NCBI GenBank assembly: GCA_024398075.1
Contig: JAKSJM010000026.1
Location: 1-37,329 of the forward strand
Direction: 5' to 3'
DNA length: 37,329 nt
Origin: Bacteroidales bacterium
Lineage (GTDB): Bacteria > Bacteroidota > Bacteroidia > Bacteroidales > UBA932
The stretch's first letter is position 1. Every line of letters begins with the position of its first letter. Made by a program: the position numbers and the translations under genes. The notes beneath the pieces are model-generated. The model did not search any database and was not told where the DNA came from. It was given only the letters and a program-made list of their open reading frames with translations. Below are positions 1,030 through 34,596 of this stretch, in pieces.

Positions 1030-1329
1030 CTAATGGGCCTGGGCGAGAAGGGCGGAGAGCTGATCAAGGGCGGAGCGGATATCAGTCTCGAAGGTGCTGT
1101 GCTCCTTGAGGAAGCTGTCATCGCCCTTCGAGAGGAGGGCGTAGAGCTGCATGGACATCTGGTCTACGTAGCTGCTGATGGCATATTCTATGTCATCTCG
1201 CTGCGATTCGGAGTGGGAGAACTCGTACACGCGGTATTTCTGATGGAAAAAGCAGTATGCCTGCTCAACGATGCCTCTATCCATAACGGCATCAAAGATA
1301 AGACAATGCTGCTTTTCGTACAATACCAT
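1030..1329 (-). CDS. Small cytoplasmic protein of unknown function (99 aa)
   Basis: This 99-residue protein has no signal peptide or membrane segment. It is rich in Tyr, Glu, Asp and His, starts with MVLYEKQH and looks mostly helical. I believe similar small proteins are common in Bacteroidales, but I cannot name a family. It starts 32 bp after the stop of the GH2 beta-mannosidase gene on the same strand, so it may be the last gene of the operon. A TACCTTTT sequence at 1354-1361 (minus strand) resembles the Bacteroidota -7 element TAnnTTTG with one mismatch, so it may also have its own promoter. Its stop is followed at once by the GCGCAAG repeats. A link to mannan use is not evident. Confidence 0.65.
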   Translation of the reverse strand: MVLYEKQHCLIFDAVMDRGIVEQAYCFFHQKYRVYEFSHSESQRDDIEYAISSYVDQMSMQLYALLSKGDDSFLKEHSTFETDIRSALDQLSALLAQAH

Positions 1330-1361
1330 TCTCTCAGGATATCATTCAGGGTGAAAAGGTA

Positions 1362-3917
1362 CTACGATTTCGCCAGATCCGAAAGAATGGCTACCATCTG
1401 GATGTCAGTCTCCTTGAGGGATTTCTCTGAGATGATCTCGACTGGGACACCGGGGACGAGGGTGACGTAGTCATCTGAAAGGCGGGTGTCGATGGCGGTC
1501 CTGAGATGCAGGCCGCGGACGAGGCGGTCTGAGCAGAGGGTAAGGCGGTGGCCGTCATCCTCAAGGCGGAGAGACACGTCAGCGGACGGGCGGTTGTAGT
1601 ACTTGGCGTCCTTCTCGAAGAAGATGTTCGTGGAGACTGTCTTGGGGCCTTCTGTCAGGGTCACGTAGACGAAGCGGTCGCAGTCTTCCAGGGACTTCAT
1701 GTCGATGGTGAGAGCATCCTCGCAGGCGTCGGCGGCGAGCTGGAGCGAGCGGCTGTCGTCGAAGAGGACGCGGCCATCGAAGGACATCACTTGGGTGCGC
1801 AGGAGGACTTTCGCCGGCGCCTTGCGGTCTGAGACCACCTTCACGGCCACGCTGCCATCCTCACGAAGATATGGCGATGCGAGCATCTCGGAATAGGCCT
1901 TCTTAGCATAGTAATGAAGTGCCTTCCAGCGGCCATAATAGTCTATACTTGACCAGGAAGCGACTGGCCAGCAGTCATTTATCTGCCAGTAGAGAGTACC
2001 CATGCAGTAAGGCTTGGCACGGCGGTGCGCCTCGATGGCGACCTTCACGGCCTCCGCCTGCTGATACTGGCTGAGGAAGACGAAGTCATAGAAGTCTGAA
2101 GGCACGTCATAGTATGCCTTCATGTACTTTATGATCTGGTTGTTTCCGAAGTTCGGATCGCGGGTCTCGTCATCATGTGCCTTCTGATGTGCCAGCATGA
2201 CTGCCGAGTCTATCTTCCTGTCCCAAGGCTGAGTGAAGCTGTCTATGGTTTTCTCGCATGGAAGCGCCTGGAAACCATACTCTGACATGAAGCGGGCGAT
2301 ATTCCTTGGCTTCAGGTACTCATCCACCATGCCACCCTTCCAGACACTCCAGAAGTGGCTGTCACCTTCTCCACCGCCTATGCCATTGAAACCGGAAACA
2401 GGCGATGTGGGATGGTAGTAATGTGCATCATCCACCTCGGCGATGGCCTGCGGGATGAGCTCCTCAAAGAGATGGTGAAGACTCTTCTCATACTGCTCCC
2501 TGTACTGCTGAGGGGTCTTGTCGCGCCAGCCCCAGCCGTAGTAGGAGATGGAATTCTCGTTGTTTCCGCACCACAGCGCCAGGCTCGGATGCTGACGGAT
2601 GCGGGTTACATTGTCCTTGACCTCAGCGGCCACTGACTCCAGGTAGTGAGCGTCGGATGGGAACATACCGCACGCGAACGCCATGTCCTGCCATACCATG
2701 ATGCCCAGGCTGTCGCAGGCGTGGTAGAAGTCGTCGCTCTCGTAGAGGCCACCGCCCCACACGCGAAGCATGTTCATGTTTGCGGCGGCAGCGTCACCCA
2801 CGGCTGCAGCGTACCATTCAGGAGTGATACGTGCCGGGAAGTTGTCCAATGGTATCCAGTCTGCGCCCTTGCAGAACACTGGCTTGCCATTCAGGATGAC
2901 GGCCATCCTATGGCCATGCTCGTCGGCGCTGCGATCCACCGTGAGAGTGCGGATGCCAGTCGTGATGGTCTTTGAAACGGTGGAATGCCCCGCACGCGCC
3001 GTGATGGTGAAGTCGTACAGCGGCTGATCGCCGAGACCATTGGACCACCACAGGCGAGGCTTCTTCACCACGAAGTCCATGGCCACCTTGTTCACGCCCT
3101 TTGAGAGCGAAACCACCTTTGAAGCGAGTTTCTTCCCTTCAGATGTAATGTCCAATGTCACAGGACCTTCCACATCGGCCTCCAAGTCCATCTCGGCCCG
3201 CATGCTCGCCGCCTTCGCGCCCTGCAGGCTCTCAGTCTTCACGTATGCTGAAGCTAGACGAAGCTCACTCCATGCTTCCAGATAGACGGGCTTCCACAGA
3301 CCTGTGGTGATGAGGCGCGGACCCCAGTCCCAGCCATAGTTGTAGCCCGACTTGCGGGCATACAGGCTGAGCCAGATGTCCGCTTGGTCATTGTTCGGCC
3401 ACGCCTGAAGCTTGTACGGCGCAGCCAGATACTTCGGCATGTCCACCTTGAAGATGGAGCTGAAGCATACTTTAATCTCGTTTTCGCCCTCAGCAAGATA
3501 AGATTTGATGTCAGTGCGCCATGTGCGGAAAGCATTGTCACAGACGAGCACCTTCTGCCCGTTCACGAAGACGTCGGCGTAGGTATCCACGCCTTCCATC
3601 ACCAGTTCGCAGTGAGTCTGAGCAAGCGTCTCAGCGCTCACGCTGAAGACGTACCTGTACTCCCAGTCCTTCTCCCCTACCCACTGGACATCCTTCTCAT
3701 TCCGTCCATAATAAGGGTCCTGGAGCTCACCGAGTGCCATGAGGTCGGTGTGCACGCAGCCTGGGACGCATCCCGCGCTCCAGGCCACTGCACCGACCTG
3801 TCGGAACTGCCAGTCACCTGACAGTTCCTGACGGCCTTGCGCCATGCTGCTTAAAGAAATCACGCATGACGCCACACTAACCAACAACAATCTATTATCA
3901 CTTAAGAACGATTTCAT
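1362..3917 (-). CDS. GH2 exo-beta-mannosidase
   Basis: The enzyme releases mannose from the non-reducing ends of beta-1,4-manno-oligosaccharides. It is 851 residues, usual for GH2 beta-mannosidases, with a signal peptide at about 1-27 that suggests the periplasm. An N-terminal sugar-binding jelly roll (about 30-200) is followed by a beta-sandwich (about 205-325) and a TIM barrel (about 340-650). The barrel carries RVWGGGLYE (385-393), the acid/base motif WCGNNE with Glu454, and the nucleophile motif SEYGFQ with Glu546, as in the Bacteroides thetaiotaomicron enzyme BtMan2A. A C-terminal beta-sandwich follows. The start codon lies inside the end of the preceding GH2 gene (20-bp overlap), which points to translational coupling. 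The start is chosen because the signal peptide follows it directly. The family call is firm; substrate range is inferred. Confidence 0.93.
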   Translation of the reverse strand: MKSFLSDNRLLLVSVASCVISLSSMAQGRQELSGDWQFRQVGAVAWSAGCVPGCVHTDLMALGELQDPYYGRNEKDVQWVGEKDWEYRYVFSVSAETLAQTHCELVMEGVDTYADVFVNGQKVLVCDNAFRTWRTDIKSYLAEGENEIKVCFSSIFKVDMPKYLAAPYKLQAWPNNDQADIWLSLYARKSGYNYGWDWGPRLITTGLWKPVYLEAWSELRLASAYVKTESLQGAKAASMRAEMDLEADVEGPVTLDITSEGKKLASKVVSLSKGVNKVAMDFVVKKPRLWWSNGLGDQPLYDFTITARAGHSTVSKTITTGIRTLTVDRSADEHGHRMAVILNGKPVFCKGADWIPLDNFPARITPEWYAAAVGDAAAANMNMLRVWGGGLYESDDFYHACDSLGIMVWQDMAFACGMFPSDAHYLESVAAEVKDNVTRIRQHPSLALWCGNNENSISYYGWGWRDKTPQQYREQYEKSLHHLFEELIPQAIAEVDDAHYYHPTSPVSGFNGIGGGEGDSHFWSVWKGGMVDEYLKPRNIARFMSEYGFQALPCEKTIDSFTQPWDRKIDSAVMLAHQKAHDDETRDPNFGNNQIIKYMKAYYDVPSDFYDFVFLSQYQQAEAVKVAIEAHRRAKPYCMGTLYWQINDCWPVASWSSIDYYGRWKALHYYAKKAYSEMLASPYLREDGSVAVKVVSDRKAPAKVLLRTQVMSFDGRVLFDDSRSLQLAADACEDALTIDMKSLEDCDRFVYVTLTEGPKTVSTNIFFEKDAKYYNRPSADVSLRLEDDGHRLTLCSDRLVRGLHLRTAIDTRLSDDYVTLVPGVPVEIISEKSLKETDIQMVAILSDLAKS

Positions 3918-6669
3918 TCTCTACATTGTATCCATCCACGCTGATGCCTACCCTCGAGCGGCCCTTTGCGGAATACGACACTGTAAATGTCCTGGATTCT
4001 CCAGGAAGAAGATTTACATATCCATCGCTGAAGAAAGCTGGAAGCACAGCAGTGCCATCTGTGAGGTAGCGGGCATTGAGCTTTATGCCAATGGCTGCGA
4101 CCTTCGCAGGATTCTTCACGGTGAAGCTTCCATCCTTGTTCCACTTCGCCGTGAGGCGGATCTTCGCGCTATCCATAGCCTTGAAGCTGCCGTCCTCGCT
4201 ACGCAGGTAATCGTTCTGCGAGAGAACCTTGTTCTTCGCATCCTTCAAGGTAAGTCGCACGATGTAGACTCCCTTTCCGGCGGAGAGATCTGCCGTAAAA
4301 CACTCAGTAAGGGCATTTGCAGGCAGCTGGGCGAGCTTATGGGTCACGGACGAGAGTTTCTTTCCCTCGAGAGAATAAAGCGCCATTTCGGCCTTTAAAG
4401 CGGATTTCTCCTCTACAGTAGTGTTCAGCACCACCACGTCAAGGTCGTCGAGATTCATCTGGATATGGACAGGCTCGCAAGCCTTCTTGCATCCGAAGAA
4501 GGAAGCCATGGTCTCGTAGTCCCATGAGTACACCTGCCACTCCACGCTTGGCCATGCCGGATGAGTCATCCACAGGAGTATGCCCGAGGTATTTGCCCAC
4601 ATGCGAGAATTCCAAGACTCGAGCATTGCACGATGAGAGTCGTAATTCATCATCTGAGCCTTGCGGCAGAAGTCATCGAGGCTCTCGCCCTTGCCGTACT
4701 TCTTCGCCATGTCGGCAAAGTAAGGAGCCGTGTCGAAGTGCATGTCGTGGTAGTACCACGCTTCCGACATAGGCCACTGATCCTCAGGAGCAAGGAACTT
4801 GCGCATGGTCTCAGCGGTAGGGAAAGAAGGTGTGCCGAGCTCGGTGTTGAAGCCAAATGCGCGGCCAGTATAGTACTCTGCAGGATTCACGAGGTAGTGC
4901 CAAGGGCCGCTGGTCCTGAGGTTTGAGTAGCGAGAGTTCGGATGGTATCTTCTGGTGCCGTCGTACTTGGCCACAGCATCATCAAGTCTAGTCTCGAGCG
5001 ACTCTGTCGCGTATCCCTCATTTCTTGGGCACCAAATGGCAATGGATGGGTGGTTTCTGAAGCGCTTCAGCACATCCACCACATTCTCCATGAAGAGATC
5101 CTCATCATTAGGGTCAAGGTTATAGCCTTCAGTAGACATCCAGAAGTCGTTCCACACGAGCATACCATACTCGTCGCAGAGCTCGTAGAACATCTCGTCA
5201 GTACTCTCACCAGTCCAGTTGCGGACCATGTTGAAGCCTGCATCCTTATGAAGCTGGAGATATGGCTCCATCTTCTCTCGCGAGCAGTCCTTCATGCCGT
5301 CATCCATACCCCAGTTTCCACCGCGGCAGAAGATGCGGACACCATTGCACTTAATCACAAGATATGGTCCCATCTCATCCTGTGGGATGGCCTTCAGGAT
5401 ATTTTCATTCACGCCCTTGCGAAGGGATGGGATCTCTGTCTCCCCCTCCACACGTCTCTGCATGCGGTTGTTGAAGAGAGCCCCATACTGCCTAAGGTCG
5501 GTAGGGTCATACTCGATGCGAAGAGCCTGGCGCGTAGGAGTGTCTACGCTAAGCTCGTAGCTAAACTCCCTCACACCGAAGCGAGTCTGCTGAACATCAA
5601 GAGCTTCCGCACCATCAAGCACCTCCATTTTCAGAGTATAGAGATTCTGCTCGCCGTAGCCATTTGGCATCCAGAGCGCAGGCTTCTCCATGCGGAGCGC
5701 GAGCTCGAACTCATTCTCGCCAGCGGCGAGTTCGAGCGCCTTCTCCACCTTCTCGCCTGCGACCTCAGCCACCACCTTCACCTTGCGCGCAGACGATGCT
5801 GCCACAGAGCTCTTCACGATGACATCGGCATACTCAGTAGACGGCAGCGGGAGGTCGGTGATGACTTGGGTATCGCCAATGGTCACGCCGTCAGACACGA
5901 CAAGTTCCACATCCTGCCAGAGGCCAATGTTCCTGTCCCTGATACCAGGCACCCAGTCCCAGCCCTCCGAACTGATGAAGGTAGGGCCGTCCAGGCAGAG
6001 CTGGCCTCCGTTAGGGCCTCGTCCAGACACGGATGACTGCTCATGAGGAATACCAGGGTTGAATGGAGGATAGATGTGCACTGCGATATGGTTCTCAGCC
6101 TTTGCAAGGGCTGTGATATCAAATCTTCCCCTTACAAATGCGCCCCTGATGCTTCCAGCCTTCGTACCATTGACCCAGACATCAGCCATGTAGTTGATGC
6201 CCTTGAAGAGAATCTCCACCTTCTTTGACGAGAGCTGCTCAGCGGTAAGGGGCAATTCTGCAGTGTACCACCAGTCCTGACGACAGAGCGACTCTGGGAT
6301 AGCCATGTTGTTCACTCCGAAGTAAGGGTCTGGATACACGCCACGCTTCACCAAGGTGGTGAGGACGGTTCCTGGCACTACAGCATTGTACTTATCACCC
6401 TGTCCGGCGATGAAGGTATCGCCAGACATGAGTGTCCATCCATCCCTGATGGCCCATGTACCATGTGCTACAGGAACGAGATTAACAGGCTGAGCCTGAT
6501 ATGGTTCCACTTCGGGAAAGACGATTTCAGCCCTGCTGGTAGGAAGCGAAGAAGGGTCTTGTGGAACGACAAGACCCTTATTGCTTGAAATCATCTGCCT
6601 GTGAGGCTGAGCAAGCGCGATGACAGAAATAGTCGCCATCAACGCTACGCTTATGATTCTTGATTTCAT
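3898..6669 (-). CDS. GH2 family hydrolase, mannosidase / exo-glucosaminidase-like
   Basis: This is a 923-residue secreted GH2 enzyme with a signal peptide at about 1-21. The sugar-binding domain spans about 70-255, the immunoglobulin-like domain about 260-370 and the TIM barrel about 430-700. The likely acid/base is Glu551 in CPRNEG and the nucleophile Glu610 in FNTELG. It resembles the branch containing exo-beta-glucosaminidases and plant-type endo-beta-mannosidases more than BtMan2A-type beta-mannosidases, but it keeps Glu rather than Asp as acid/base, so glucosaminidase activity is less likely. Its ATG overlaps the stop of the upstream DUF5060-GH5 gene by four bases (ATGA), and its own end overlaps the next GH2 gene by 20 bases. 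The exact substrate is unknown; a beta-mannoside is inferred from the locus. The lipoprotein at 29957-32866 is its paralogue. Confidence 0.85.
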   Translation of the reverse strand: MKSRIISVALMATISVIALAQPHRQMISSNKGLVVPQDPSSLPTSRAEIVFPEVEPYQAQPVNLVPVAHGTWAIRDGWTLMSGDTFIAGQGDKYNAVVPGTVLTTLVKRGVYPDPYFGVNNMAIPESLCRQDWWYTAELPLTAEQLSSKKVEILFKGINYMADVWVNGTKAGSIRGAFVRGRFDITALAKAENHIAVHIYPPFNPGIPHEQSSVSGRGPNGGQLCLDGPTFISSEGWDWVPGIRDRNIGLWQDVELVVSDGVTIGDTQVITDLPLPSTEYADVIVKSSVAASSARKVKVVAEVAGEKVEKALELAAGENEFELALRMEKPALWMPNGYGEQNLYTLKMEVLDGAEALDVQQTRFGVREFSYELSVDTPTRQALRIEYDPTDLRQYGALFNNRMQRRVEGETEIPSLRKGVNENILKAIPQDEMGPYLVIKCNGVRIFCRGGNWGMDDGMKDCSREKMEPYLQLHKDAGFNMVRNWTGESTDEMFYELCDEYGMLVWNDFWMSTEGYNLDPNDEDLFMENVVDVLKRFRNHPSIAIWCPRNEGYATESLETRLDDAVAKYDGTRRYHPNSRYSNLRTSGPWHYLVNPAEYYTGRAFGFNTELGTPSFPTAETMRKFLAPEDQWPMSEAWYYHDMHFDTAPYFADMAKKYGKGESLDDFCRKAQMMNYDSHRAMLESWNSRMWANTSGILLWMTHPAWPSVEWQVYSWDYETMASFFGCKKACEPVHIQMNLDDLDVVVLNTTVEEKSALKAEMALYSLEGKKLSSVTHKLAQLPANALTECFTADLSAGKGVYIVRLTLKDAKNKVLSQNDYLRSEDGSFKAMDSAKIRLTAKWNKDGSFTVKNPAKVAAIGIKLNARYLTDGTAVLPAFFSDGYVNLLPGESRTFTVSYSAKGRSRVGISVDGYNVENEIVLK

Positions 6670-8288
6670 AGATTAACGATAAAGAGTTTCTCCTGATGTG
6701 CTTTAAGCTTGACTTTCTTGACCTTGGCAGGCTTGCAAAGCGCTACCTTCTCGATGTCATACTCTGCGACCTGTGCCCACTCACTGTGTCCAGCGAGTTC
6801 GGTGACAGTCACAGCCTTGTCGGAGTCATTGAACAAGTAAACGAAAAGCTTGTTTCCACACTTGACTGCATGGCACTCAGCATTCGCTACAGGGATGGTG
6901 ACATTCTCGAAGCTGCCCTTGCCCTCTGCAAGCATCATGTCCGAGATCTCGCGTACAGGCTTGAAGTACTTCATCATGTCGCGGTCCTCGAAATACTCCC
7001 ACCACCAGCTCATAGGAGTGACTGGGGTCGAGTAGAACAGACCGTACCAGAGGCCACGTCTGAAGTCCCAGTCCATGCCGTCTGCGAAGTCATTGAAGTT
7101 CTGAGACCAATCCCACTCGTATGAGAACTCGCCGATGATGTATGGCTTGCCATGGGCGGCCTCATACTTCTGGATGGTACCAGGAATGGAATTGGTAGCT
7201 TTATAGATATGCTTCTGGTTGATGTCCATGTCAGGCACGTCGTTCATGCCCTTCACGTCGCGATGCGAGATGGAAGTGGTCACGATGTGCTTGTATGGGT
7301 CGAGAGCCTTGAGGTACTTGCTCATCTCAGCATGCCACCTGGTGATGTCCTCGTGAGGGATAGGGTTCTTGCGGTCGCTGAACTGGATGTTGTCGACCTC
7401 GTTGAAGAACTCCCACATGCCAATGGACTCGCTGTATCCCCAGCGTGCCACGATATAGCGGAGGCGGTTCTGATGCTCAGCCTTCGCGGCATCGGTAGCG
7501 AAGAAATCGCGGTTTGTACGCGCCTCGCCGGCACCCATGCAGAGCATCACCTTGATGCCGAGCTGCTCGCAGAGCTCCATCATATGGTCGAGGCGCTGAA
7601 CCGCGCTCTCGTTGATAGGCTCGGTGGTAGGAGTGTAACGGAGGTTGTTGAAATGGTCCTTCTTGTCGATAGGGAAGTTCCATCCGTTCACCCATACCCT
7701 TATGAAGTTTCCACCGTTCTGTGCGAACAGAGGAAGCATATAGTCGTAGTTATACTTCTCATGCTTCTCGTGGAGAGCCTTGAAGAACTTGGAGTCGTCG
7801 TTTGCACGTGACTCCCAGCAGATGTTCTCGCCGATACCACGGAAAAGATCACCATTGTCATACTTGAGTGTCCAGTTGTCATTGACACTCAGCATGCCTT
7901 GGCGATCGCTGGCGGTAACCTTGATAACTCCGCCTGCGCCAGCGCTCTCGAGCGCGCCCTTCTCCTTGTAGATGAAGGTGTAGGAATAGGTTCCGACCAT
8001 GCGTGGGGTGAAACGAGCCTCCCATGTAGAAAGTTCGCCTGCCTTTCCAGTCTTGTGGAAGCATGGCAGCACAAGTGTAGAACCGTCTGGAGCGGTGATC
8101 ACCATATCGAGGGTGACTTCCTGCTGCCTGTATGGGTTCTCCCAATTGCCCTTGAGGCTGACCTCAAAGTCAGCGCGGGCATACTGCTCCACTGCACCCT
8201 GTGGTGCCGAGCAGTTCATTATCTGCGCACTCGCAGGGACAAAAGCCACTGCGAGCGCTGCAAATACTGAAACAATAGTTTTATTCAT
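6666..8288 (-). CDS. DUF5060 domain plus GH5-like glycoside hydrolase
   Basis: This 540-residue protein has a signal peptide (about 1-22), a DUF5060-type beta-sandwich (about 25-125) and a clan GH-A TIM barrel (about 135-455), followed by a small C-terminal beta-domain. The probable acid/base is Glu297 in WEFFNEVD at the end of strand 4, and the probable nucleophile is Glu387 in IIGEFSYEWDW at strand 7. The barrel is GH5-like; I cannot assign a subfamily. Cleavage of beta-mannosidic or beta-glucosidic links in imported oligosaccharides is inferred from context. The gene ends in an ATGA overlap with the GH2 gene at 3898-6669 and starts 15 bp after the DUF1735 gene. A paralogue at 32863-34596 is coupled to another GH2 gene in the opposite operon. 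Confidence 0.85.
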   Translation of the reverse strand: MNKTIVSVFAALAVAFVPASAQIMNCSAPQGAVEQYARADFEVSLKGNWENPYRQQEVTLDMVITAPDGSTLVLPCFHKTGKAGELSTWEARFTPRMVGTYSYTFIYKEKGALESAGAGGVIKVTASDRQGMLSVNDNWTLKYDNGDLFRGIGENICWESRANDDSKFFKALHEKHEKYNYDYMLPLFAQNGGNFIRVWVNGWNFPIDKKDHFNNLRYTPTTEPINESAVQRLDHMMELCEQLGIKVMLCMGAGEARTNRDFFATDAAKAEHQNRLRYIVARWGYSESIGMWEFFNEVDNIQFSDRKNPIPHEDITRWHAEMSKYLKALDPYKHIVTTSISHRDVKGMNDVPDMDINQKHIYKATNSIPGTIQKYEAAHGKPYIIGEFSYEWDWSQNFNDFADGMDWDFRRGLWYGLFYSTPVTPMSWWWEYFEDRDMMKYFKPVREISDMMLAEGKGSFENVTIPVANAECHAVKCGNKLFVYLFNDSDKAVTVTELAGHSEWAQVAEYDIEKVALCKPAKVKKVKLKAHQEKLFIVNL

Positions 8289-8303: not shown

Positions 8304-8852
8304 TTAAAGATAGGCCTTCATAGCGTCTACATCAAGCTTGATCACCACCTCGCTGGCATCCTTTGAGAGCTCGTACTTGGTAGGATTTGTGATGTCGACA
8401 CAAAGAACATATACCTTGCCTGAAGCTGCCTGGAGGGCACTCTTCTGGAGCTCAAGATATACAGTGGTAGAGTTCTTGTCACCAGGAACGGTGGCCTTGA
8501 GAGGGAGTGAATACATAGCATCTGGCATCACCTCTGCACCCATGGCCTTGGCCTGCTCAGCAGAAGCTGAAGCATTGGCCTCAAGGTTCACGGTCACATC
8601 CTCTGCGTTAAGCTTGCCTGAGCGATAAACGCTCAGGTAAACCTTAACTGCATTCTCCTCTACCTTGAAGTTGTAGGTATAGACATCTGCGCCTGCAGGC
8701 ACTGCGTATACATTGTCAATGGCGCCGTTTGTCATGGCCTGAGCGATGTATACCACAGCGTTTCCGTACTCCGCGTCGCCGTCACCCTTCTGGCATGAAA
8801 CAGCAGCAAAAGCGCACAATGTCGCAAGTATGCTGAATAATATCTTCTTCAT
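8304..8852 (-). CDS. DUF1735-type surface lipoprotein
   Basis: This 182-residue lipoprotein starts with MKKILFSILA and has a lipobox ending at Cys20 (AAVSC). The first half of the mature chain fits the DUF1735 / BT_3987-like beta-sandwich, including a YRSGKLNAEDVTV segment. Such proteins commonly follow susD and act as surface glycan-binding or accessory proteins. The frame is open 36 codons further upstream, but that extension would overlap the SusD gene and would bury the signal peptide; the chosen ATG lies one base after the SusD stop. It is shorter than most surface binding proteins and has only one recognisable domain. A binding role is inferred from position. Confidence 0.8.
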   Translation of the reverse strand: MKKILFSILATLCAFAAVSCQKGDGDAEYGNAVVYIAQAMTNGAIDNVYAVPAGADVYTYNFKVEENAVKVYLSVYRSGKLNAEDVTVNLEANASASAEQAKAMGAEVMPDAMYSLPLKATVPGDKNSTTVYLELQKSALQAASGKVYVLCVDITNPTKYELSKDASEVVIKLDVDAMKAYL

Positions 8853-8853
8853 A

Positions 8854-10500: not shown

Positions 10501-10517
10501 CTTGTGCCGTATTTAGA

Positions 10518-13274: not shown

Positions 13275-13292
13275 ATTCCTACTACTTAACTA

Positions 13293-21885: not shown

Positions 21886-21905
21886 AAACTCGATTTTTCT
21901 CGCCA

Positions 21906-21913
21906 CAAAGGTA
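21906..21913 (-). promoter_or_regulatory. -7 element upstream of the AraC regulator gene
   Basis: On the minus strand this reads TACCTTTG, matching TAnnTTTG. Transcription would start near 21899, leaving about 14 bases before the ATG at 21885. It also argues against the GTG start at 21906, which would lie inside the promoter. Confidence 0.55.
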
Positions 21914-21960
21914 TATTTTATTTTGATAAAAAAGTATCACTAAAACATATTTTATTTAAA

Positions 21961-21968: not shown

Positions 21969-22000
21969 ATTGCTTAAAAATATCATTAGCTAAGAAAAGC

Positions 22001-23476: not shown

Positions 23477-23478
23477 CT

Positions 23479-25707: not shown

Positions 25708-25726
25708 TAATCAATCCATTAATCAC

Positions 25727-27676
25727 ATGAAAAAGTATTTGAACATCACGCTCGCACTCCTGGCTATGTCAGTCGCAGTAGTAGCATGTCGTACCACGGA
25801 CCCATTGGCACCGGATGACAGCAAGATCCAGCAGGGAGAGCAGAAGCCTGAGGAGCAGGTAGTGGATTTCACTGCCGTTCTCGAGTCCACAAACAAGACA
25901 GCTTGGACAAATGGCGAGGAGATCCTCCTCTTCGACGGTCAGACCAAGACTGTGAAGGTATCTGCTGCAGGCGCATCTGCCCAGATCAGCGGAGACATTG
26001 CAAAGGATGCAAAGGCATACATCGCTTACTGGCCTGCATCAGACAAGCCAGCGCTCAGCGCAGAGGGCATCAAGACCTCTGTTCCTACAGTACAGGCTGC
26101 AGCCGAATCCATCGACGGTCTCGTGAAGCTCGTCGCTAGAAGCAACTCACCTAGACTCGCATTCAACGACGTTTACTCTTATGTAGCATTCTCTACAAGC
26201 ATGGAGAACGTATCAAAGATCGTCTTCACCTCTGACAAGGAGATGGCCGGCGACATCACCATCGGTTTCGCAAATGGCGGAGCTACCATCTCTGGCGCTA
26301 CATCTAAGAGCATCGAGGTGACTGGACCATTCGAGCCAGGCAAGACATACTATTTCAGAGCGCTCCCTAACTTCAATGGCACCATCACCGGTACCATCAC
26401 ATCGAACGCGAAGGAGTATGAGTTCGAGGGCCTCGCTACAGACTTCATGGTCGGCCAGACCGCAGAGCTTCCTCTCATCTACAAGCCTTGTCCTCTCAAG
26501 GGTGTCTACAAGATCAGCCATATCTGGGTATATGGCGGTACAGGCCCTGAGTACGGCGGTGGCGGTGTAAGAGACCTCTTCGCACAGGCAAACCTCTTCG
26601 TATCCAAGCTCGGCAGAGGTATCGAGGCTGAGGCTGACAACTACATCGAGGTTCTCCAGGACGGTACCATGTACAACTGGGCTGGCGAGGACGGAAAGAA
26701 CTCAAGATTCGTCTTCAAGGCAGAGTTCAACAAGAAGCAGAAGGGCTACCCTATCGAGCTCGAGAAGTTCTACCGCAAGCTTCCTAAGGGACAGAGCGCA
26801 GTAGAGGCTGACGAGGCTGGAAACGTAACCATCACTGACGCTGCAGGAAACCAGACCAAGGGTTACACGATCCCTGCAGGTGAGTATGAGAACAATGGCG
26901 GTTCAAAGACCACCATCACCACCATGGCTATCAAGTTTGACATCGCCGGCGGTACTGATGACTGGACAAACATCTACAGTGAGTACGACAAGCTCGCAGC
27001 CAAGCCACGCGCAATGTGGATCGAGTTCGAGCCAATGGAGAAGGGCTTTGAGGTTCCTCAGGCAGCAAAGACCACTGAGACTATCCCAGCAGACGAGGTT
27101 CTCGATCCAGATGAGCCTATCCATACTTCATTCGACTTCACCAAGCTCCCTGGTTCATGGGGCTTCGACAGCGTCACCTCAGACTGCCAGGTACTCGGTG
27201 GTTGCGGTTCTGACCCTGCATTCGTAGGACCTGTAGACAAGTCTTGGGACTGGGATGATACCATCTGGAAGCTCGGAGACGACCTCGTGAACATCTCTAT
27301 CGAGAATGGCAAGTTCTACTTCAACTACTGGGCTGGTAACGACGGCCAGTTCTGGAACTACACGTGGAAGGCTACCGGTGAGGACCTCTCAAGATTCTAT
27401 GGTCTCCTTCCTAAGGGCAAGCATGAGGTTACCCTGAACATGGATACTCTCGTAGCTACATTTGACAATGGCACCAAGTGCCAGTTCCTCGTTCCTGGCA
27501 CATACCAGTTCTCTGAGTTCAAGAAGGAGAAGGTCGTACCAGATGACTGCTGGGCACTCTACTTCGACTTCGGTGCACCTAAGGGCGGTTACCCTGAGAA
27601 CGACAAGCACTGGACTGACGTCGACAGATTCGTAATGTCTCCTCACGGATACATCATGATCTTCCACAAGAAATAA
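25727..27676 (+). CDS. Large surface lipoprotein: fimbrillin-like domain plus two binding-like modules
   Basis: This 649-residue lipoprotein has its lipobox at Cys21 (AVVAC). Residues about 45-250 resemble fimbrillin-like adhesin domains ([22 protein letters not shown]). Two related modules follow, at about 256-440 and 470-649, sharing an NW/NYWAG-[ED]DG stretch, FY-x-x-LPKG (348-354 and 557-563), a strand ending in PAGEY or PGTY, and a final hydrophobic strand. The same module occurs once in the lipoprotein at 19866-20900. There is no catalytic motif. It is probably a multivalent surface glycan-binding protein that feeds the GH26 enzymes. The gene starts 19 bp after the esterase-GH26 gene, and its stop overlaps the GH130 start (TAATG). 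Confidence 0.78.
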
Positions 27677-28842
27677 TGACAATGACAGAATTTGAAACAA
27701 GATTGAAAAGCCTCAGAGAGCAGCACGAAGAGCTGCTCTCGAGGAAAAACATAGAGCTGGAGGGCAACGGTGTATACTGCCGTTACAAGTACCCTATCCT
27801 CACCGGTGACCATGCTCCACTCGAGTGGAGATACGACCTCGACGAGAAGACAAACCCATATCTCATGGAGAGGTTCGGCATCCACGCGGCGTTCAACAGC
27901 GGCGCCATCAAGTGGGGTGACAAGTACGTGCTCGTAGTGCGCGTCGAGGCGGCGGACAGAAAGTCATTCTTCGCAGTGGCCGAGAGCCCTAACGGAGTCG
28001 ACAACTTCCGCTTCTGGGAGCGCCCTATCACCATGCCTGAGTGGGGTGAGCCTGCTACCAATGTCTACGACATGAGACTCACCAGACACGAGGACGGATG
28101 GATCTACGGACTCTTCTGCGTGGAGAGAAAGGACCATGACCTCGAGGCTGACCTTTCGGCAGCCACCGCTGCCTGCGGTATCGCCCGTACCAAGGACCTC
28201 ATCACATGGGAGAGACTCCCTGACCTGAAGTCTCGCTCACAGCAGAGAAACGTCTGCCTGCACCCTGAGTTCGTGGATGGCAAGTATGCCCTCTACACAC
28301 GCCCTCAGGATGGATTCATCGACGCCGGCAGCGGCGGTGGCATCGGCTGGGCACTCATCGACGACATCACCTGCGCTGAGGTAAAGGAGGAGAAGATCAT
28401 CAACGCCCGCCACTACCACACCATCACCGAGGTGAAGAACGGAGAGGGTCCACACCCTATCAAGACCGACAAGGGCTGGCTTCATCTCGCACACGGCGTT
28501 CGCGGCTGCGCTTCGGGCCTCCGCTACGTCCTGTACATGTACATGACTTCGCTCGAGGACCCTACCAAGGTCATCGCGCAGCCCGCTGGCTTCTTCATTG
28601 CCCCTGACGGAGAGGAGTACATCGGAGACGTCATGAACGTCACCTTCGCGAACGGCTGGATTGCCGACAAGGACGGGAAGGTATTCATCTACTACGCTTC
28701 ATCTGACACCCGCATGCACGTGGCCACATCGACCATCGATCGCCTCGTGGACTACTGCATGAACACTGAGCCAGATGGCCTCAGGACGGGTCTCACAGTA
28801 GAAAGATTGAACCGTCTCATCGACAAGAACAAGAACCTATGA
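27676..28842 (+). CDS. GH130 4-O-beta-D-mannosyl-D-glucose phosphorylase
   Basis: The cytoplasmic enzyme splits beta-1,4-mannosyl-glucose with phosphate into mannose 1-phosphate and glucose. Its 388 residues, lack of signal peptide and near-continuous resemblance to the Bacteroides fragilis phosphorylase place it in GH130 subfamily 1: [12 protein letters not shown] (31-42), [20 protein letters not shown], then YDMRLT with the catalytic Asp132, and [19 protein letters not shown]. In known loci it acts with a cellobiose 2-epimerase that converts mannobiose to Man-Glc; no epimerase is visible here, though Man-Glc could come directly from glucomannan. The ATG overlaps the previous stop by one base; an ATG two codons later is also possible. 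The gene overlaps the reductase gene by four bases. Confidence 0.95.
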
Positions 28843-29831
28843 TCGACCACTACCTTCCTTCTCCCGACCGATATGAGTCGGGCATGATCTACAACAGATG
28901 CGGCCGCAGCGGAGTGCTGATCCCTCAGATCTCACTCGGCATGTGGCAGAACTTCGGCAGCACAGCGCCTTACGAGAGATCTAAGGCCATACTTCGTACT
29001 GCGTTTGACGAAGGCATCTGTCACTTCGACCTTGCAAACAACTACGGACCTGTATTCGGTTCTGCCGAAGAGAACTTCGGCAAGATGATGGAGACAGACT
29101 TCAAGCCATTCCGTGATGAGATGTTCATCTCCACCAAGGCTGGCTGGAGCATGTGGCCAGGTCCTTACGGCGACTTGGGTTCCAGGAAATATCTGATGGC
29201 CAGCCTCGACCAGAGCCTGAAGAGAATGCACCTGGACTACGTGGACATTTTCTACTCGCATCGCTACGATCCTAACACTCCGCTTGAGGAGACTCTTCAG
29301 GCGCTTGTGGACATCGTACGCAGCGGAAAGGCTCTCTACGTAGGTATCTCAAGCTACCCTTACGAGGCAGCCAAGTTTGCATACGAGTATCTGGAGGCAC
29401 ACGATACGCATTGCCTGCTGAACCAGACGAAGCTGAACATGCTCTACACAGACCCTATCGAGGAGCATATCCTCGAGCTCGGACAGGAAAAGGGAGTAGG
29501 TTTCATAGCATTTTCACCACTCGCTCAGGGCCAGCTCACAAACCGCTATCTGAATGGCGTTCCTGCTGGTTCAAGAGGTGACAATGGTACCCTCAAGGGT
29601 AGCGTCACACCAGAGCTCGTGGAGAAACTGAACAAGCTCAATGACATGGCAGCGGAGCGAGGCCAGAGCCTCGCGCAGATGGCCCTCTCGTGGGATTTCG
29701 CTCAGCCAGGGCTGACATCTGTCATCGTGGGCGCGAGCTCAGTGGAGCAGCTGAAGGACAGCCTGAAGGCGGTCCACAGCCCTGCTCTCACGAGCGAAGA
29801 GCTCACCCGCATAGCTGATATCCTGAAATAG
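28839..29831 (+). CDS. Aldo/keto reductase, YghZ-like
   Basis: This is a 330-residue cytoplasmic NADP(H)-type aldo/keto reductase of the YghZ / Kv-beta-like branch. The catalytic tetrad is present: Asp64 (HFDLANNYG), Tyr69, Lys100 (STKAGW) and His141 (FYSHRYD). Cofactor-binding residues lie near the C-terminus ([15 protein letters not shown]). E. coli YghZ reduces glyceraldehyde 3-phosphate and small aldehydes. It overlaps the GH130 gene by ATGA, so the two are probably made together, yet the physiological substrate is unknown; reduction of a sugar released by the phosphorylase is speculation. It may instead detoxify aldehydes formed during fast sugar use. Confidence 0.9.
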
Positions 29832-29850
29832 CCGGTTATTTGGCACAAAA

Positions 29851-29927
29851 CGCGCTATCCGCATAGCGCGACTCTCATACAGCGTGGTTTTCCAGTAGAA
29901 TCACGCTGTGTTGTTTATCGTGATAAA
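29851..29927. promoter_or_regulatory. Three successive inverted repeats between reductase and GH2 genes
   Basis: The only sizeable gap inside the plus-strand operon holds three perfect inverted repeats in a row. CGCGCTAT (29851-29858) pairs with ATAGCGCG (29863-29870) over a 4-base loop. ACAGCGTG (29879-29886) pairs with CACGCTGT (29902-29909) over 15 bases. TTTATC-GT-GATAAA lies at 29914-29927. None is followed by a T-tract. They could be an RNA processing or attenuation region or a protein-binding site that sets the level of the two genes that follow. No TAnnTTTG promoter is seen here. Confidence 0.6.
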
Positions 29928-29956
29928 TGCTGAGGCTTCTTTCGCAAATTAACCAT

Positions 29957-32866
29957 ATGAAGAAATCGATGTACATAGCCATGGCGATCGCGGCGCTGCT
30001 GTCAAGCTGCAGCCCGAAACCACGGCTACTGATGCCAGCAGACGGCATCGAGACCAGCCAGAACATGCCTACCCTCGCCTGGAAGGGCGTCGAGTGCGAC
30101 TATTACGAGGTCATTGTCAATGACATCGTAGTGGAGAAGGTGCCTGGCTACAAAAGTGCCTGCACGGCGTTCCCTCTCTCGTACGGAGAGAACACCTGGC
30201 AGGTGCGCGCAGTGAAGGGCGGCAGCGCCAGGGAGTCGGAGAAGCGCGTGATACGAGTGAGCGACGGCACGCTCTCCCCTCTCCCGCAGCGCAGCCAGCT
30301 GCTCCGCGAGGGCTGGGCCGTTCAATCGTCTGCAGTGGTCGGCAGCGGACTTCCAGAAGCCACTGAAGGGTGGTACAAGACCTCTATCCCTGCCACCGTG
30401 CTCACAGCGCTTGTGAGAAATGGAGTGTATCCAAACCCATACGTGGGCATGAACAACATGCAGATACCTGACTCGGACGATGAGTACAACGAAGAGTATA
30501 ACCTACTGAAGTTCAGCCACATCCCTGGCGTAAATCCTTGGAAGGACCCATACTGGTTCATGACCCGTTTCACGCTCAGCGAAGAGATCGAAGACTCCAA
30601 GCATATAGAACTGAACTTCCGCGAAATAAACTACCGCGCAGACATATATCTGAATGGGCAGCTTCTCGCTGACAGAGAGCAGGCCGTGGGTATGGAAAGG
30701 CATCTCCAGTACGATGTGACAGACATCGTGAAGCGTGACTCAGAAAACACCCTCGCTGTGCTCATCTATCCGGTTGACCATCCCGGAAAGCCTGAGGTTG
30801 AGCCACTTACGGCACTGGCGAACCCAGGCCAGAACATGGGTGACGGCATGATTTCGCACGATTATGCGAAGTGGGACACCATGGGATGGGACTGGATTCC
30901 TGCCGTGCGCGACCGCGACATGGGCATCACCGAAGAGGTGTTCCTCGCAGGTGACGACGGGCTGGCGATGGCCAATGTTTACGTGTCTGCCGAGCCAGAC
31001 CTTGCCCAGAGTGGCAAGGCCGCGGTAGCTATATCATTGGACCTCAAAAACTTCTCTGACTCGGAGAAAGCCGGCGAGCTTAAACTTTCCATCAAGGGAC
31101 ACGGCAAGGACATAGCACTCAGCAAGCCTTATCAAGTCGCTGCGGGAAGCTGTCAGAGCGTCACGCTCGATGCTAGCGAGTTCGCGGAACTAGAGCTTTC
31201 AGACGCGAAGCTCTGGTGGCCAGTCGGCTATGGCGAGCCTGACCTCTACGAGTACAGCCTCACAGCCGACGCCGACACGCAGAGCGGCCACTTCGGCATC
31301 AGGAAGGTGGAGTCGCGCATGGGCGCTTCTGCACGCGAGTTCTTCATCAACGGTCGCCGCATCTACCCTGTCGGAGGAAACTGGGTCATCGACATGATGC
31401 TGAACTGGACCCCATCCAGGTACGAGAAGGAGGTACTTCTCTCGAAGAACGCCGGCTTGAACATGCTGCGCGTCTGGGGCCCTACGGGTATCGCCCCTGA
31501 CGCACTCTTCGACGCCGCTGACCGCCACGGCATCCTCATGTGGCAGGACTTCCTGAATGACTTCTGGGGCACTTTCCGCAACCGCCCAGGCTACCAGCCA
31601 GAACTCGCTCTCTATAAGGAAATCTCCACAGGCATCGTGAAACGTCTGCGTAACCACCCATCCCTCATCATCTGGTGCGGTGGCAATGAAGGCGTGAACC
31701 CTCGCGAAGAAATGCTTGTAAATGAAATACTTGCTCAAGAAGACAGCAGAACGTCGCGCTTCTACCTAAGCGCTTCCGACGGAGACGGTCTGCATGGTGG
31801 TGGCCCATACAACACCATCCAGCCGGAGGAGTACTTCACCCACCAGAAGCTGTCCGGCTTCAGCAGCGAGATCGGCCCAAGCGGCCTCCCTGTATGGCAG
31901 AGCGCCGAGAAGTTCCTGCTCGGGCAGGAGGGCGAGGCAGCGCCAGGGCGCTTCCCTCTGGACGGCCAGTTCGCATATCACGATGCGAACGACTGGCCTG
32001 GCCAGGACAAGCGCAAGTTCCACACCTACGACGACATGGTGCGCGGGTGGTACGGAAGCATTGACTCCACCGACTTCCGCAAGGCCTGCAAGGACTACTT
32101 CGCAAAGGCTCAGTTCGTAAACTACGACGTCTACAAGGCAGCCGTGGAGTCCATCAACCGCCAGCTCTGGGACGGCGCATGCGGCATCATGCTGTGGAAG
32201 TCAAACTCCGCATGGCCAAGCATGGTCTGGCAGCTCTATGACTGGTATCTGCAGGCAAATGCCGGCTACTACGCCACGAAAAAGGCGGCAGAGCCGCTGC
32301 ATGTGCAGCTGAACCGCGACGACCACAGCGTGAGCGTGATAAACCTCACTTCGCAGTCCGTCAGCAGCCTCAAGGTCAATGCTACACTATATGACTTCCA
32401 GGCCAATGCTGTCTGGACAGATGAAGCGGCTCTTGACAACGCCCTCGACGGCGCCACACTCACAGGCATCTGCGTTCCGAAGAAAGCAGAGACTGGCATA
32501 CTTCGTCTTACCCTCCTCTCTTCCGAGGGCGAGCATATCAGCCACAACGACTATTGGATAGGGTCAGACCATGATTACGCGAGTCTTGTAAATCTCAAGC
32601 CATCTATCTCTGTCTCAGTCGTTTCCGAAACCATAGAGGGCGAAAAGCACTGTTACGAGATCATTGTCCAGAACAATGGAAAAGACATTTCCCCTCTCAC
32701 ACAGCTCAGCCTCCAGGGACGCAAGTCGCACCAGGAGATACTCCCATCTCTGTGGAGCGACAACTTCCTGACCCTTCTCCCTGGTGAGCAGCGCACGCTT
32801 ACTCTTCAGGTCTTCGAGGAGGATATTACAGAACCCGTAGAAATAAACAAATCTCTCAAAAAATGA
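29957..32866 (+). CDS. GH2 family hydrolase lipoprotein with FN3-like N-terminal domain
   Basis: This 969-residue GH2 enzyme is anchored as a lipoprotein (Cys18 in ALLSSC). Residues about 20-105 resemble a fibronectin-III-like domain; the GH2 sugar-binding domain spans about 115-330, followed by a beta-sandwich (about 335-450) and a TIM barrel (about 455-760). Acid/base Glu578 lies in WCGGNEG and the nucleophile is probably Glu638 in SSEIGPSGLP. It is a paralogue of the 923-residue enzyme at 3898-6669, for example in the TVLT-LV-GVYP-PY-G-NNM stretch. The chosen ATG directly precedes the lipoprotein signal; an ATG ten codons upstream lies on the edge of an inverted repeat. Its end overlaps the next gene by ATGA. 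A beta-mannoside substrate is inferred from context only. Confidence 0.87.
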   Translation: MKKSMYIAMAIAALLSSCSPKPRLLMPADGIETSQNMPTLAWKGVECDYYEVIVNDIVVEKVPGYKSACTAFPLSYGENTWQVRAVKGGSARESEKRVIRVSDGTLSPLPQRSQLLREGWAVQSSAVVGSGLPEATEGWYKTSIPATVLTALVRNGVYPNPYVGMNNMQIPDSDDEYNEEYNLLKFSHIPGVNPWKDPYWFMTRFTLSEEIEDSKHIELNFREINYRADIYLNGQLLADREQAVGMERHLQYDVTDIVKRDSENTLAVLIYPVDHPGKPEVEPLTALANPGQNMGDGMISHDYAKWDTMGWDWIPAVRDRDMGITEEVFLAGDDGLAMANVYVSAEPDLAQSGKAAVAISLDLKNFSDSEKAGELKLSIKGHGKDIALSKPYQVAAGSCQSVTLDASEFAELELSDAKLWWPVGYGEPDLYEYSLTADADTQSGHFGIRKVESRMGASAREFFINGRRIYPVGGNWVIDMMLNWTPSRYEKEVLLSKNAGLNMLRVWGPTGIAPDALFDAADRHGILMWQDFLNDFWGTFRNRPGYQPELALYKEISTGIVKRLRNHPSLIIWCGGNEGVNPREEMLVNEILAQEDSRTSRFYLSASDGDGLHGGGPYNTIQPEEYFTHQKLSGFSSEIGPSGLPVWQSAEKFLLGQEGEAAPGRFPLDGQFAYHDANDWPGQDKRKFHTYDDMVRGWYGSIDSTDFRKACKDYFAKAQFVNYDVYKAAVESINRQLWDGACGIMLWKSNSAWPSMVWQLYDWYLQANAGYYATKKAAEPLHVQLNRDDHSVSVINLTSQSVSSLKVNATLYDFQANAVWTDEAALDNALDGATLTGICVPKKAETGILRLTLLSSEGEHISHNDYWIGSDHDYASLVNLKPSISVSVVSETIEGEKHCYEIIVQNNGKDISPLTQLSLQGRKSHQEILPSLWSDNFLTLLPGEQRTLTLQVFEEDITEPVEINKSLKK

Positions 32867-34596
32867 AAAACTCAAGATTCTTGGTTGCCGCCATCCTTAT
32901 GATATTGGGCGCATCCACACTCGCACAGGGCAAGAGCAAGATCATCTCCGCCCAGCCTGATGGAAACGATTTCCTTCAGTACAAGATGAACGAATGGACC
33001 GTAGTCCTTAACGGACAATGGCAGAATGACCCATACGACCAGCAGCAGATCGCGCTTGACCTTCTGTTCGCAGGCCCAGACGGCGTGGAGAAGGTGCTCC
33101 CTTGCTACTATGTGTCTGGAAACAGCGGCAAGAAGAGCGTATGGAAGGCGCGCTTTGCGCCTGTCGCTGCCGGCAAGAACAGTCTCACCTTCGTTCTGCG
33201 CGAAGGTGGCCAGAAAGTGGCTGAACTGGCTTGCAAGGCCATTGATGTAAAGGCCACCGATGCCAAGGGATTCCTTCATCCAAATGACAATTGGACCTTC
33301 AAGTACGACGACGGCACCCTTTTCAGAGGTGTCGGAGAGAACATCTGCTGGGAGCTCCGCAGGGGCGAAAGCCAGAAATTCATGAAGGAGTATGGCGATG
33401 ACGGAAGCCGCTTCAACTATGGTTACATGCTCCACAAGCTCGCTGACCTCGGAGGCAACTTCTACAGAGTCTGGTTCACATCAAACCTGGTCCGCGGCGA
33501 CTTCAGAAGAGGCGAGCAGAGGCCTGCCGCTCCTCAGAAGCCAGAGTACAGGCCTGAGTTCAGTGAGTCAATGATGTCGAAGATGGACTACATGGTAAGG
33601 CTGAGCGACAGCCTCGACATCCACATGATGCTGGCCCTTGACACTCACAATTTCCTTATCAATTGGAAAGGAAACAGATACAACGTCGAGAATGGCGGTC
33701 CTGCCACGACACGCACCGATTTCTTCGCCATGGACGAGTGCCGCAGACTCTACAAGAACAAGCTGCGCTTTGTCATTGCTCGTTACGCATATAGCCCTGC
33801 CATCGGCTGCTGGGAGTTCTTCAACGAGGTGGACAACGCCATGTTCAACACCGAGGAGCAGATCCCCGAGAACGTGGTGATGGACTGGCACAGGGAGATG
33901 TCAGAGTATGTGAAGGCCACCGACCCATACAACCACCTCGTGACCACCAGCATCTCGCATCGCGACGTTCAGGACATGAACTTCATCCCTACCATGGACT
34001 TCAACCAGAAGCATATCTATTGCCACACAGACAGGATTCCAGCCACCATCCGTGACTACGAGACCATCTACGGCAAGCCTTATGTCATCGGAGAGGAAGG
34101 ATATCATTGGGACTGGAACCTCGACTTCGCGACCATGGTCCCAGGTCTCATCCACGACTACAAGTTCGCGCTGTGGCTGGGACTGTTCTCACCTACCCCT
34201 ATCCTCCCTATGAGCTGGTGGTGGGAGTTCTTCGAGTACCACGGCACCTACGAGTACATCGCCATTGTGAGCAAGCTGCACGAGATGATGATGGAAGCCG
34301 CAAATGGCGACTTCAGCAGCATCGACTGCGCCGGCTCGGCGGAGAGCACAGCCCTGGCAGTCAAGGCGGGCAAGAAGATCTTCGTCTACATCCACAATGA
34401 CAATGACTCAGACTTCACAGCAGGCTTCTCCATCGCAGCACCAGCCGGAGAGTACAGCCTGGAATGCTTCGACACAAAGACCGGAGCCCTCACCGCCATG
34501 CCGAATCTGACCTGTGGCGCCCAGAACACGCTTCACCTTCCGAAAGCGAACCTCGGCCCGAAGGGTGACGTGATCTACATCGTCACCCGGCCATAA
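32863..34596 (+). CDS. DUF5060 domain plus GH5-like glycoside hydrolase, second copy
   Basis: This 577-residue secreted protein has a signal peptide (about 1-22), a DUF5060-type beta-sandwich (about 28-130) and a GH-A TIM barrel (about 140-480) with acid/base Glu322 in WEFFNEVD and nucleophile Glu411 in VIGEEGYHWDW, plus a small C-terminal beta-domain. It is a clear paralogue of the 540-residue protein at 6666-8288, sharing NDNWT-KYD and SISHRDV blocks, but it has an insertion around residues 208-240 before the active-site strand. Its ATG overlaps the GH2 stop. It is the last gene of the plus-strand operon; a hairpin sits over its final codons. The exact substrate is not known. Confidence 0.85.
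   Translation: MKNSRFLVAAILMILGASTLAQGKSKIISAQPDGNDFLQYKMNEWTVVLNGQWQNDPYDQQQIALDLLFAGPDGVEKVLPCYYVSGNSGKKSVWKARFAPVAAGKNSLTFVLREGGQKVAELACKAIDVKATDAKGFLHPNDNWTFKYDDGTLFRGVGENICWELRRGESQKFMKEYGDDGSRFNYGYMLHKLADLGGNFYRVWFTSNLVRGDFRRGEQRPAAPQKPEYRPEFSESMMSKMDYMVRLSDSLDIHMMLALDTHNFLINWKGNRYNVENGGPATTRTDFFAMDECRRLYKNKLRFVIARYAYSPAIGCWEFFNEVDNAMFNTEEQIPENVVMDWHREMSEYVKATDPYNHLVTTSISHRDVQDMNFIPTMDFNQKHIYCHTDRIPATIRDYETIYGKPYVIGEEGYHWDWNLDFATMVPGLIHDYKFALWLGLFSPTPILPMSWWWEFFEYHGTYEYIAIVSKLHEMMMEAANGDFSSIDCAGSAESTALAVKAGKKIFVYIHNDNDSDFTAGFSIAAPAGEYSLECFDTKTGALTAMPNLTCGAQNTLHLPKANLGPKGDVIYIVTRP
34563..34588 (+). terminator. Hairpin over the last codons of the plus-strand operon
   Basis: GGGTGACG (34563-34570) and CGTCACCC (34581-34588) form a perfect 8-bp stem with a 10-base loop, ending five bases before the TAA of the DUF5060-GH5 gene. 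There is no T-tract, so it may protect the 3' end of the mRNA rather than terminate on its own. Confidence 0.4.

Follow-up and report, generated by a model that had tools for sequence, protein, structure and literature searches.

Contig JAKSJM010000026.1 of assembly GCA_024398075.1 (37,329 nucleotides, analyzed whole and called the window; contig C19 of a draft genome of 2.49 Mb and 82% completeness) carries a polysaccharide utilization locus (PUL) at positions 1362–34596. With a probability of roughly 0.78, this locus would serve beta-1,4-(gluco)mannan in an uncultured herbivore-gut Bacteroidales and would combine an old tandem SusCDCD transport unit with separately descended enzymes, its left–right pairs reflecting division of labour and accretion. 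Two results in its favour are the tandem order of the transport genes, which recurs in 71 of 80 named related loci, and the trees of the enzyme pairs, which place the pair members apart. The trees speak against the ancient block duplication proposed in an earlier note on the same DNA, which had described a divergent AraC-controlled mannan locus with almost every component doubled. The locus appears to be a mosaic: most of the parts that look doubled are old enzymes with separate lines of inheritance. Only one recent doubling was found, in a tract of the GH130 gene, and it points outside the window.

SusC and SusD genes are adjacent and accompanied by carbohydrate-active enzymes recognized by Pfam, as in Sus-like PULs. 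From the centre outward, the minus strand encodes the AraC-type regulator, lipo2, GH26a, SusCa, SusDa, SusCb, SusDb, a DUF1735 lipoprotein, GH5a, GH2b and GH2a, and the plus strand encodes GH30, esterase-GH26b, g15, GH130, an aldo/keto reductase, GH2c and GH5b. Within either run, neighbouring genes overlap or are separated by no more than 109 bases. Two AT-rich gaps mark the centre, of 109 bases between lipo2 and the AraC gene and of 94 bases between the AraC gene and GH30. The left edge had been placed at 1030; the outermost left gene ends at 1362, and positions 793–1013, left of the locus, form a tandem repeat array. The features are the following.

1362..3917, minus strand: GH2a, beta-mannosidase-like GH2 with Mannosidase_ig (Pfam); own deep clade in the GH2 tree
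3898..6669, minus strand: GH2b, GH2 with Ig_GlcNase domain (Pfam); orthologues in relatives mostly at 49–57%
6666..8288, minus strand: GH5a, DUF5060-GH5 with signal peptide (Pfam); distant match to the solved DUF5060 protein 9gmj
8304..8960, minus strand: DUF1735 (BT_3987-like_N) lipoprotein, after SusDb (Pfam)
8854..10500, minus strand: SusDb (Pfam)
10518..13274, minus strand: SusCb, TonB-dependent receptor without CarboxypepD_reg match (Pfam); orthologues in relatives
13293..15095, minus strand: SusDa (Pfam); orthologues in relatives
15108..18383, minus strand: SusCa (Pfam); Ca-Da-Cb-Db order in relatives
18409..19857, minus strand: GH26a, BACON-GH26 lipoprotein (Pfam, lipobox), presumed surface mannanase
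19866..20900, minus strand: lipo2, presumed surface glycan-binding lipoprotein with one unnamed module; no Pfam match
21010..21906, minus strand: AraC-type regulator (Pfam HTH_18), in the same direction as the left operon
22001..23476, plus strand: GH30 with signal peptide (Pfam)
23470..25707, plus strand: esterase-GH26b, CBM48-CE1-type esterase fused to GH26 (Pfam), signal peptide I, presumed periplasmic
25727..27676, plus strand: g15, lipoprotein carrying the unnamed module twice; no Pfam match
27676..28842, plus strand: GH130, mannosylglucose-phosphorylase type (match to solved 3was), no signal peptide
27889..28805, plus strand: identical tract in GH130, 917 bases equal to the GH130 at G000:C1:51663-52805 (G000 being the same genome)
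28839..29831, plus strand: aldo/keto reductase, YghZ-like, no signal peptide (Pfam)
29927..32866, plus strand: GH2c, GH2 lipoprotein with Ig_GlcNase domain (Pfam)
32863..34596, plus strand: GH5b, DUF5060-GH5 with signal peptide; 41% identity to GH5a

The listed domain classes exceed their Pfam cut-offs, mostly by a wide margin; GH5a does so modestly and GH5b is the exception. All enzyme classes named in the earlier note (GH26, CE-GH26, GH130, three GH2, two DUF5060-GH5, GH30, together with AraC and two SusCD) were recovered by Pfam, GH5b through its identity to GH5a; the reductase (377 bits against NCBIfam PRK09912, cut-off 448) was missing from that list. The statement that nearly every component is doubled holds for GH26, GH5, GH2, the binding module and, within one operon, SusCD, but GH30, the esterase, GH130, the reductase and the DUF1735 lipoprotein are single-copy in the window. 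The open reading frame (ORF) of this lipoprotein is listed from a TTG at 8960; homologous matches start at about residue 35, and its true start is probably near residue 36.

The tandem SusCDCD unit in relatives

Relatives were taken as 80 named loci around SusDb, the best of 475 found, with gene presence scored within 10 kb flanks so that the counts are lower bounds. In the window, the two SusCD pairs described by the earlier note do exist, but both lie on the minus strand (8854–18383) as Ca-Da-Cb-Db and none in the plus operon. The same order was found in 71 of the 80 loci, Pedobacter and Chitinophaga included, and in the remaining nine the contig extends at most 6.2 kb upstream of SusDb. SusDb is present at 60% identity or more in at least 35 of 350 genus genomes, own genome included, and its nearest named relative is in a metagenome-assembled genome (MAG) from horse faeces, Bacteroidales bacterium Horse_feces46 (L124), at 96%. 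Since the unit is complete in 71 relatives, in some of them beside GH16 or GH43, it was not doubled here, and a duplication of SusCD within this locus is ruled out by the tandem order in relatives. SusCDCD is an old transport module kept across orders.

The neighbours of the unit suggest that it probably serves several glycans. Where SusDb reaches 60% identity, 41 of 43 loci have mannan-type genes (GH26a, GH5a or GH130) next to the unit; where it stays under 60%, 8 of 37 do. Five of the 29 non-mannan loci at low identity were inspected and hold GH16 (L138, L148), GH43 (L143), GH20 (L111) or GH3 (L127). Among the 11 Pedobacter and Chitinophaga loci, five have SusCDCD with GH130, GH5a and the esterase, three of these also AraC and one GH30. 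A GH26 (26–27% identity) is present in the four Pedobacter loci of those five, two of them checked by Pfam; in the Chitinophaga locus, provided that its record corresponds to contig G940:C1, a GH26 follows about 1.2 kb beyond the stretch. The divergent layout is not unique, GH30 standing beyond lipo2 on the opposite strand in five genus members (G286, G526, G469, G558 and G359).

The AraC-type protein (21010–21906) shares 52–54% identity with AraC proteins encoded next to this transport unit in Pedobacter and Flavihumibacter (L117, L126, L130), and a lower 37–41% with that of same-genus loci, G452 excepted; these are similarity values and do not imply orthology.

Descent of the paired enzymes and binding proteins

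The pairs consist of diverged paralogues rather than identical copies, as had been stated from the sequence: identity is 45% between GH26a and GH26b, 41% between GH5a and GH5b, 29% between GH2b and GH2c, 24–25% between GH2a and the other GH2s, 27% between the SusCs and 28% between the SusDs.

The GH26 tree (13 of 61 rows dropped) groups GH26a with the left-operon GH26s of relatives, and GH26b with the esterase-GH26 fusions of G452 (a sister species), L079 and L087, together with stand-alone GH26s of four other family genomes. Constraining GH26a and GH26b to one clade, each with its G452 orthologue, changes the log-likelihood by −198 units (approximately unbiased test, p-AU 7e-48); if the constraint also takes in the two other fusions, the change is −90 units (p-AU 1e-9). 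Glu 289 and Glu 396, which we take to be the catalytic pair, are invariant across 10 GH26 sequences and kept in both GH26s of the window. The best solved matches of GH26a are 4zxo and then Man26C entries, Man26C-type mannanases coming first among the named solved relatives. Both halves of esterase-GH26b have solved relatives. Among the 20 named loci with the esterase, it is fused in 2, alone in 16 and cut off in 2, so that fusion is the rarer state; in these loci, the esterase lies on the strand of the transport unit.

The GH2 enzymes form three deep lineages in a tree of 33 rows (loci left out by name prefix), with GH2c as a lone branch, and a sister relation of GH2b and GH2c is rejected (p-AU 3e-11). 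Glutamate is aligned at both presumed catalytic positions of GH2a, GH2b and GH2c; exo-glucosaminidases such as CsxA have aspartate as acid/base. G452 shares GH2c at 96% and the reductase at 98%, and its contig ends before GH5b would begin.

GH5a matches GH5 with 32.9 bits (cut-off 23.5) and DUF5060 with 32.2 bits (cut-off 27.2), and orthologues at 38% identity or more are present in 46 of the 80 named loci. GH5b gave no GH5 match in Pfam at E 0.01 and a DUF5060 score of 22.8 bits, under the cut-off of 27.2; it was placed by its 41% identity to GH5a over 523 residues. In the GH5 tree (ORFs below 430 residues and identical ones dropped, then 14 near-duplicates of 57), GH5b falls outside the starred clade of 37 of the 43 rows that holds GH5a, its nearest neighbours being two rows from another family, and the clade test for GH5a with GH5b gave a p-AU of 0.035. 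Searches at E 1e-60 of 299 family genomes and 345 phylum genomes gave no GH5b orthologue, the best other matches reaching 44% and 47%, respectively. Literature searches found no work linking DUF5060 with mannan, and those on 9gmj and its kin found no function, the matches being unrelated uses of the same letters.

The best catch of the earlier note is that the two binding lipoproteins are built from the same module: blastp finds nothing between lipo2 and g15, and it is a profile comparison (hhalign 99.9%, E 6e-34) by which they are seen to share one module without Pfam family. It occurs once in lipo2 (19866–20900) and twice in g15 (25727–27676; about residues 255–460 and 461–649), and the best solved match of lipo2 reaches only E 0.11. 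In two related mannan loci, Pfam-less proteins of 483 and 491 residues (L036:8224-9675 and L045:11686-13161) adjoin lipo2 and GH26.

The GH130 tract and the surroundings of the locus

A second GH130 gene, 94% identical, lies on contig C1 of the same genome. It belongs to a second PUL (G000:C1:46001-64000, L212) with SusC, SusD, an SGBP-B-type protein, a TIG protein, GH26, GH5, GH130, MFS_2, GH5 and GH94, which appears to be of a more ordinary, glucomannan type. Over window positions 27889–28805, 917 bases, the two GH130 copies show no difference, and mismatches crowd outside this tract (55 of 204 aligned gene bases before it, 16 of 37 after it). The genes neighbouring the two copies are unrelated, and a comparison of window 14700–34600 with the genome revealed nothing else alike, the next match elsewhere being 79 bases at 87% inside SusCa.

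In G452, contig C32 runs through the second copy, and two PUL contigs (C44 and C21) terminate within the tract. At both of these ends, the last 55 bases are identical to C32; they bound a stretch of 926 bases, corresponding to window 27862–28787. A k-mer assembler would be expected to break in this way where a repeat is exact. The two species differ at 44 of the 917 bases (4.8%). Since the tract is equal within each genome and different between species, exchange probably took place after the species split, in both lines, and recurrent gene conversion at GH130 is probable. These comparisons use assemblies, in which single differences in repeats can be merged so that zero differences may stand for a few, and the tract identity in G452 is deduced from contig ends. 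In a GH130 tree of 24 rows (L165, L083, the C1 copy and L219–L223 left out), the tract is placed with non-PUL copies (L049, L158; SH-aLRT 92, unstarred), which no more than hints at the C1 copy as the donor. The chances appear about even that recurrent gene conversion homogenised the central ~920 bases within each of the two sister species while the ends of the genes and their surroundings diverged, the two PULs being coupled in evolution at a shared cytoplasmic step, and that the Pfam-less module is a new mannan-binding family. In literature searches, gene conversion between PULs was absent from titles and abstract openings.

Tandem repeat arrays flank the locus on both sides (window 1–1013 and 34619–34954), with units of 72, 83 and 102 bases. 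A PD-(D/E)XK family transposase-type gene (Pfam) lies just beyond it at 35014–35997, and a LytTR-type response regulator gene was recognized by eye at 36231–36983. In the window, no tRNA was found, no Rfam RNA reached the gathering score, and the promoter consensus TTTG-N17-22-TAnnTTTG gave 0 matches.

Predicted pathway, known systems and alternative readings

The assignment to beta-mannan, already made in the earlier note, is supported by the gene content, by GH26 enzymes with both glutamates and by a GH130 that appears from its sequence to be of the mannosylglucose-phosphorylase type, scoring 654 bits against the solved 4-O-beta-D-mannosyl-D-glucose phosphorylase 3was. Lipoprotein signals were read by a motif script in GH26a, lipo2, g15, GH2c and SusDa; SusDb and the DUF1735 protein have, by eye, a cysteine at the right place. 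Signals resembling those of SPase I are present in GH2b, GH5a, GH30, esterase-GH26b and GH5b, and none in GH130 and the reductase. GH2a was flagged as a lipoprotein through a doubtful lipobox, and a later MAQG site makes SPase I equally likely. Such signals suggest that GH26a is a surface lipoprotein and esterase-GH26b periplasmic.

Substrate, compartments, order of steps and regulation by AraC are predictions. GH26a would cut mannan at the cell surface, where lipo2, g15 and the SusD proteins would bind it, and oligosaccharides would be imported through the SusC channels. In the periplasm, esterase-GH26b would remove acyl (probably acetyl) groups and cut further, and GH5a, GH5b, GH30 and the GH2 enzymes may trim ends, these roles being putative. 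GH130 would then split mannosyl-glucose with phosphate in the cytoplasm, mannobiose probably being first converted by a cellobiose-2-epimerase-like enzyme encoded on contig C12 (303 bits to cellobiose 2-epimerases versus 104 to N-acylglucosamine epimerases). The presence of this gene rules out that the epimerase is missing from the genome; because it stands among ROK kinase, MFS and SIS genes, the link to mannan is not certain. An MFS_2 transporter is encoded in the second PUL, and further GH26 genes lie on C1 and C22. By Pfam, no alpha-galactosidase, as in the galactomannan PUL of the B. ovatus type, occurs in the window, and Melibiase_2 matches lie elsewhere in the genome. The scheme would fit the known route from mannan through mannobiose and mannosyl-glucose to mannose-1-phosphate, with one step encoded outside the window.

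In the literature examined (main texts in part, PMC9860051, PMC11216935 and PMC9599597 among them; supplements and PUL databases being outside its scope), no locus with this gene order was met, in line with the earlier note, which knew of no described mannan locus with this combination. The Bacteroides ovatus beta-mannan PUL, bacova_02087-02097, encodes a GH26 at the surface and another that is probably periplasmic, and a second putative beta-mannan PUL is described in B. ovatus (PMC5217682). Shared with the window are this GH26 pair, a mannoglucosyl phosphorylase, glycan-binding proteins and a mannobiose route to the cytoplasm. As described there, B. ovatus has one SusC and one SusD, a hybrid two-component regulator, and GH36, symporter and isomerase in the locus (PMC5217682), whereas here are found SusCDCD, AraC, three GH2, two DUF5060-GH5, GH30 and an esterase-GH26 fusion, with neither GH36 nor symporter in the window.

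The mannan locus/PUL32 of B. cellulosilyticus and PUL9 of B. uniformis, in the sections considered, resemble the window in a GH26 pair, GH130_1 (B. cellulosilyticus), esterases and a GH26 predicted at the outer membrane (PMC13276840, PMC13357471). Their esterases belong to CE7 (in the locus) and CE25 (on another contig), in contrast to the CE1-type here; DUF5060-GH5 and GH30 are unnamed in those sections, and "two SusC/SusD-like" may denote one pair or two (PMC13276840, PMC13357471). Judged by the same sections, the second PUL on C1 looks closer to these loci than the window does. Two SusC/SusD pairs are described in parts of the xylan literature, in the tandem xusA-B-C-D-E followed by a further outer-membrane protein (PMC7848910) and in B. 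ovatus PUL-XylL (PMC4491172). The window likewise has the C-D-C-D order and a further lipoprotein; this likeness is one of gene order, and the enzymes there are for xylan (PMC7848910, PMC4491172). Segatella copri glucomannan PUL 7/8, as far as covered, shares two GH26 plus a fused GH26, GH130 and an esterase, and comprises two neighbouring PULs, each with SusC/D (PMC12704710). Its fusion partner is GH5_4 and one of its GH26s has lost both catalytic residues (PMC12704710), whereas here the partner is an esterase and both GH26s keep their glutamates, which rules out an inactive second GH26 as in S. copri.

Several observations weigh against a plain beta-mannan mosaic. The GH5 clade test is marginal and the GH5b branch very long, and long-branch warnings also apply to the trees of GH2 and GH26. 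Lipoprotein placement relies on script-read motifs, the doubtful GH2a lipobox included, and the solved relatives of the esterase are named ferulic acid esterases, so acetyl specificity is a guess. By Pfam, neither a symporter nor a mannobiose epimerase is encoded in the window. Six of the 11 Pedobacter and Chitinophaga loci carry the transport unit without any of these enzymes, and L118, a termite-gut draft genome with the unit and GH5a, yielded no GH26 at all (one of five genomes searched). GH30 resembles a beta-1,6-glucanase, an activity that plain glucomannan would not require.

This last point would suit a mixed glycan with beta-1,6-glucose, of which GH30 would be a main enzyme: its nearest curated model is the BT3312 endo-1,6-beta-glucanase, at 329 bits below the cut-off of 700, and some loci with GH16 have this transport unit as well. 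Such a substrate is nevertheless improbable, as two GH26s, a mannosylglucose-type GH130 and mannosidase-like GH2s point to mannan and GH30 is present at 45% or more in only 18 of the 80 named loci. The occurrence of three enzyme classes and the binding module on both sides is what would be left if one mannan operon had been duplicated as a block long ago and had then diverged, but the sides are not collinear (GH5a-GH2b-GH2a on the left, GH2c-GH5b on the right) and SusCD is doubled within one side only. Clade tests and trees rule out a recent event, and sisterhood is rejected among the sampled rows for GH26 (p-AU 1e-9) and GH2b/GH2c (3e-11), with 0.035 for GH5. A duplication older than the whole sampled set is conceivable; overall, block duplication is very unlikely.

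A locus for two substrates, the left operon handling one mannan and the right operon an acylated or otherwise altered one, draws on the presence of the esterase on the right only and on the different number of modules in the binding proteins. It is doubtful, given that the single transport set lies on the left and that, in the 20 named esterase-carrying loci, esterase and transport unit share one strand. A division between surface and periplasm would be a simpler reading of the GH26 pair than two forms of polysaccharide, and the second PUL on C1 would be the more natural carrier of a second substrate form.

For the preferred reading of an old transport unit with separately descended enzymes, a complex PUL can grow as genes are added to an ancient double transport unit, and a tally of the doubled parts of a single window may point to a duplication which the trees contradict. 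SusCDCD combined with DUF5060-GH5, a CE1-type esterase and GH130 is met repeatedly, sometimes with GH30 and GH26 added, in a range that reaches from rumen MAGs to Pedobacter and Chitinophaga, and this recurrence makes DUF5060-GH5, the esterase and the binding module clear targets for mannan assays. The GH130 tract, if true, would give a clean example from nature of gene conversion that links one PUL with another.

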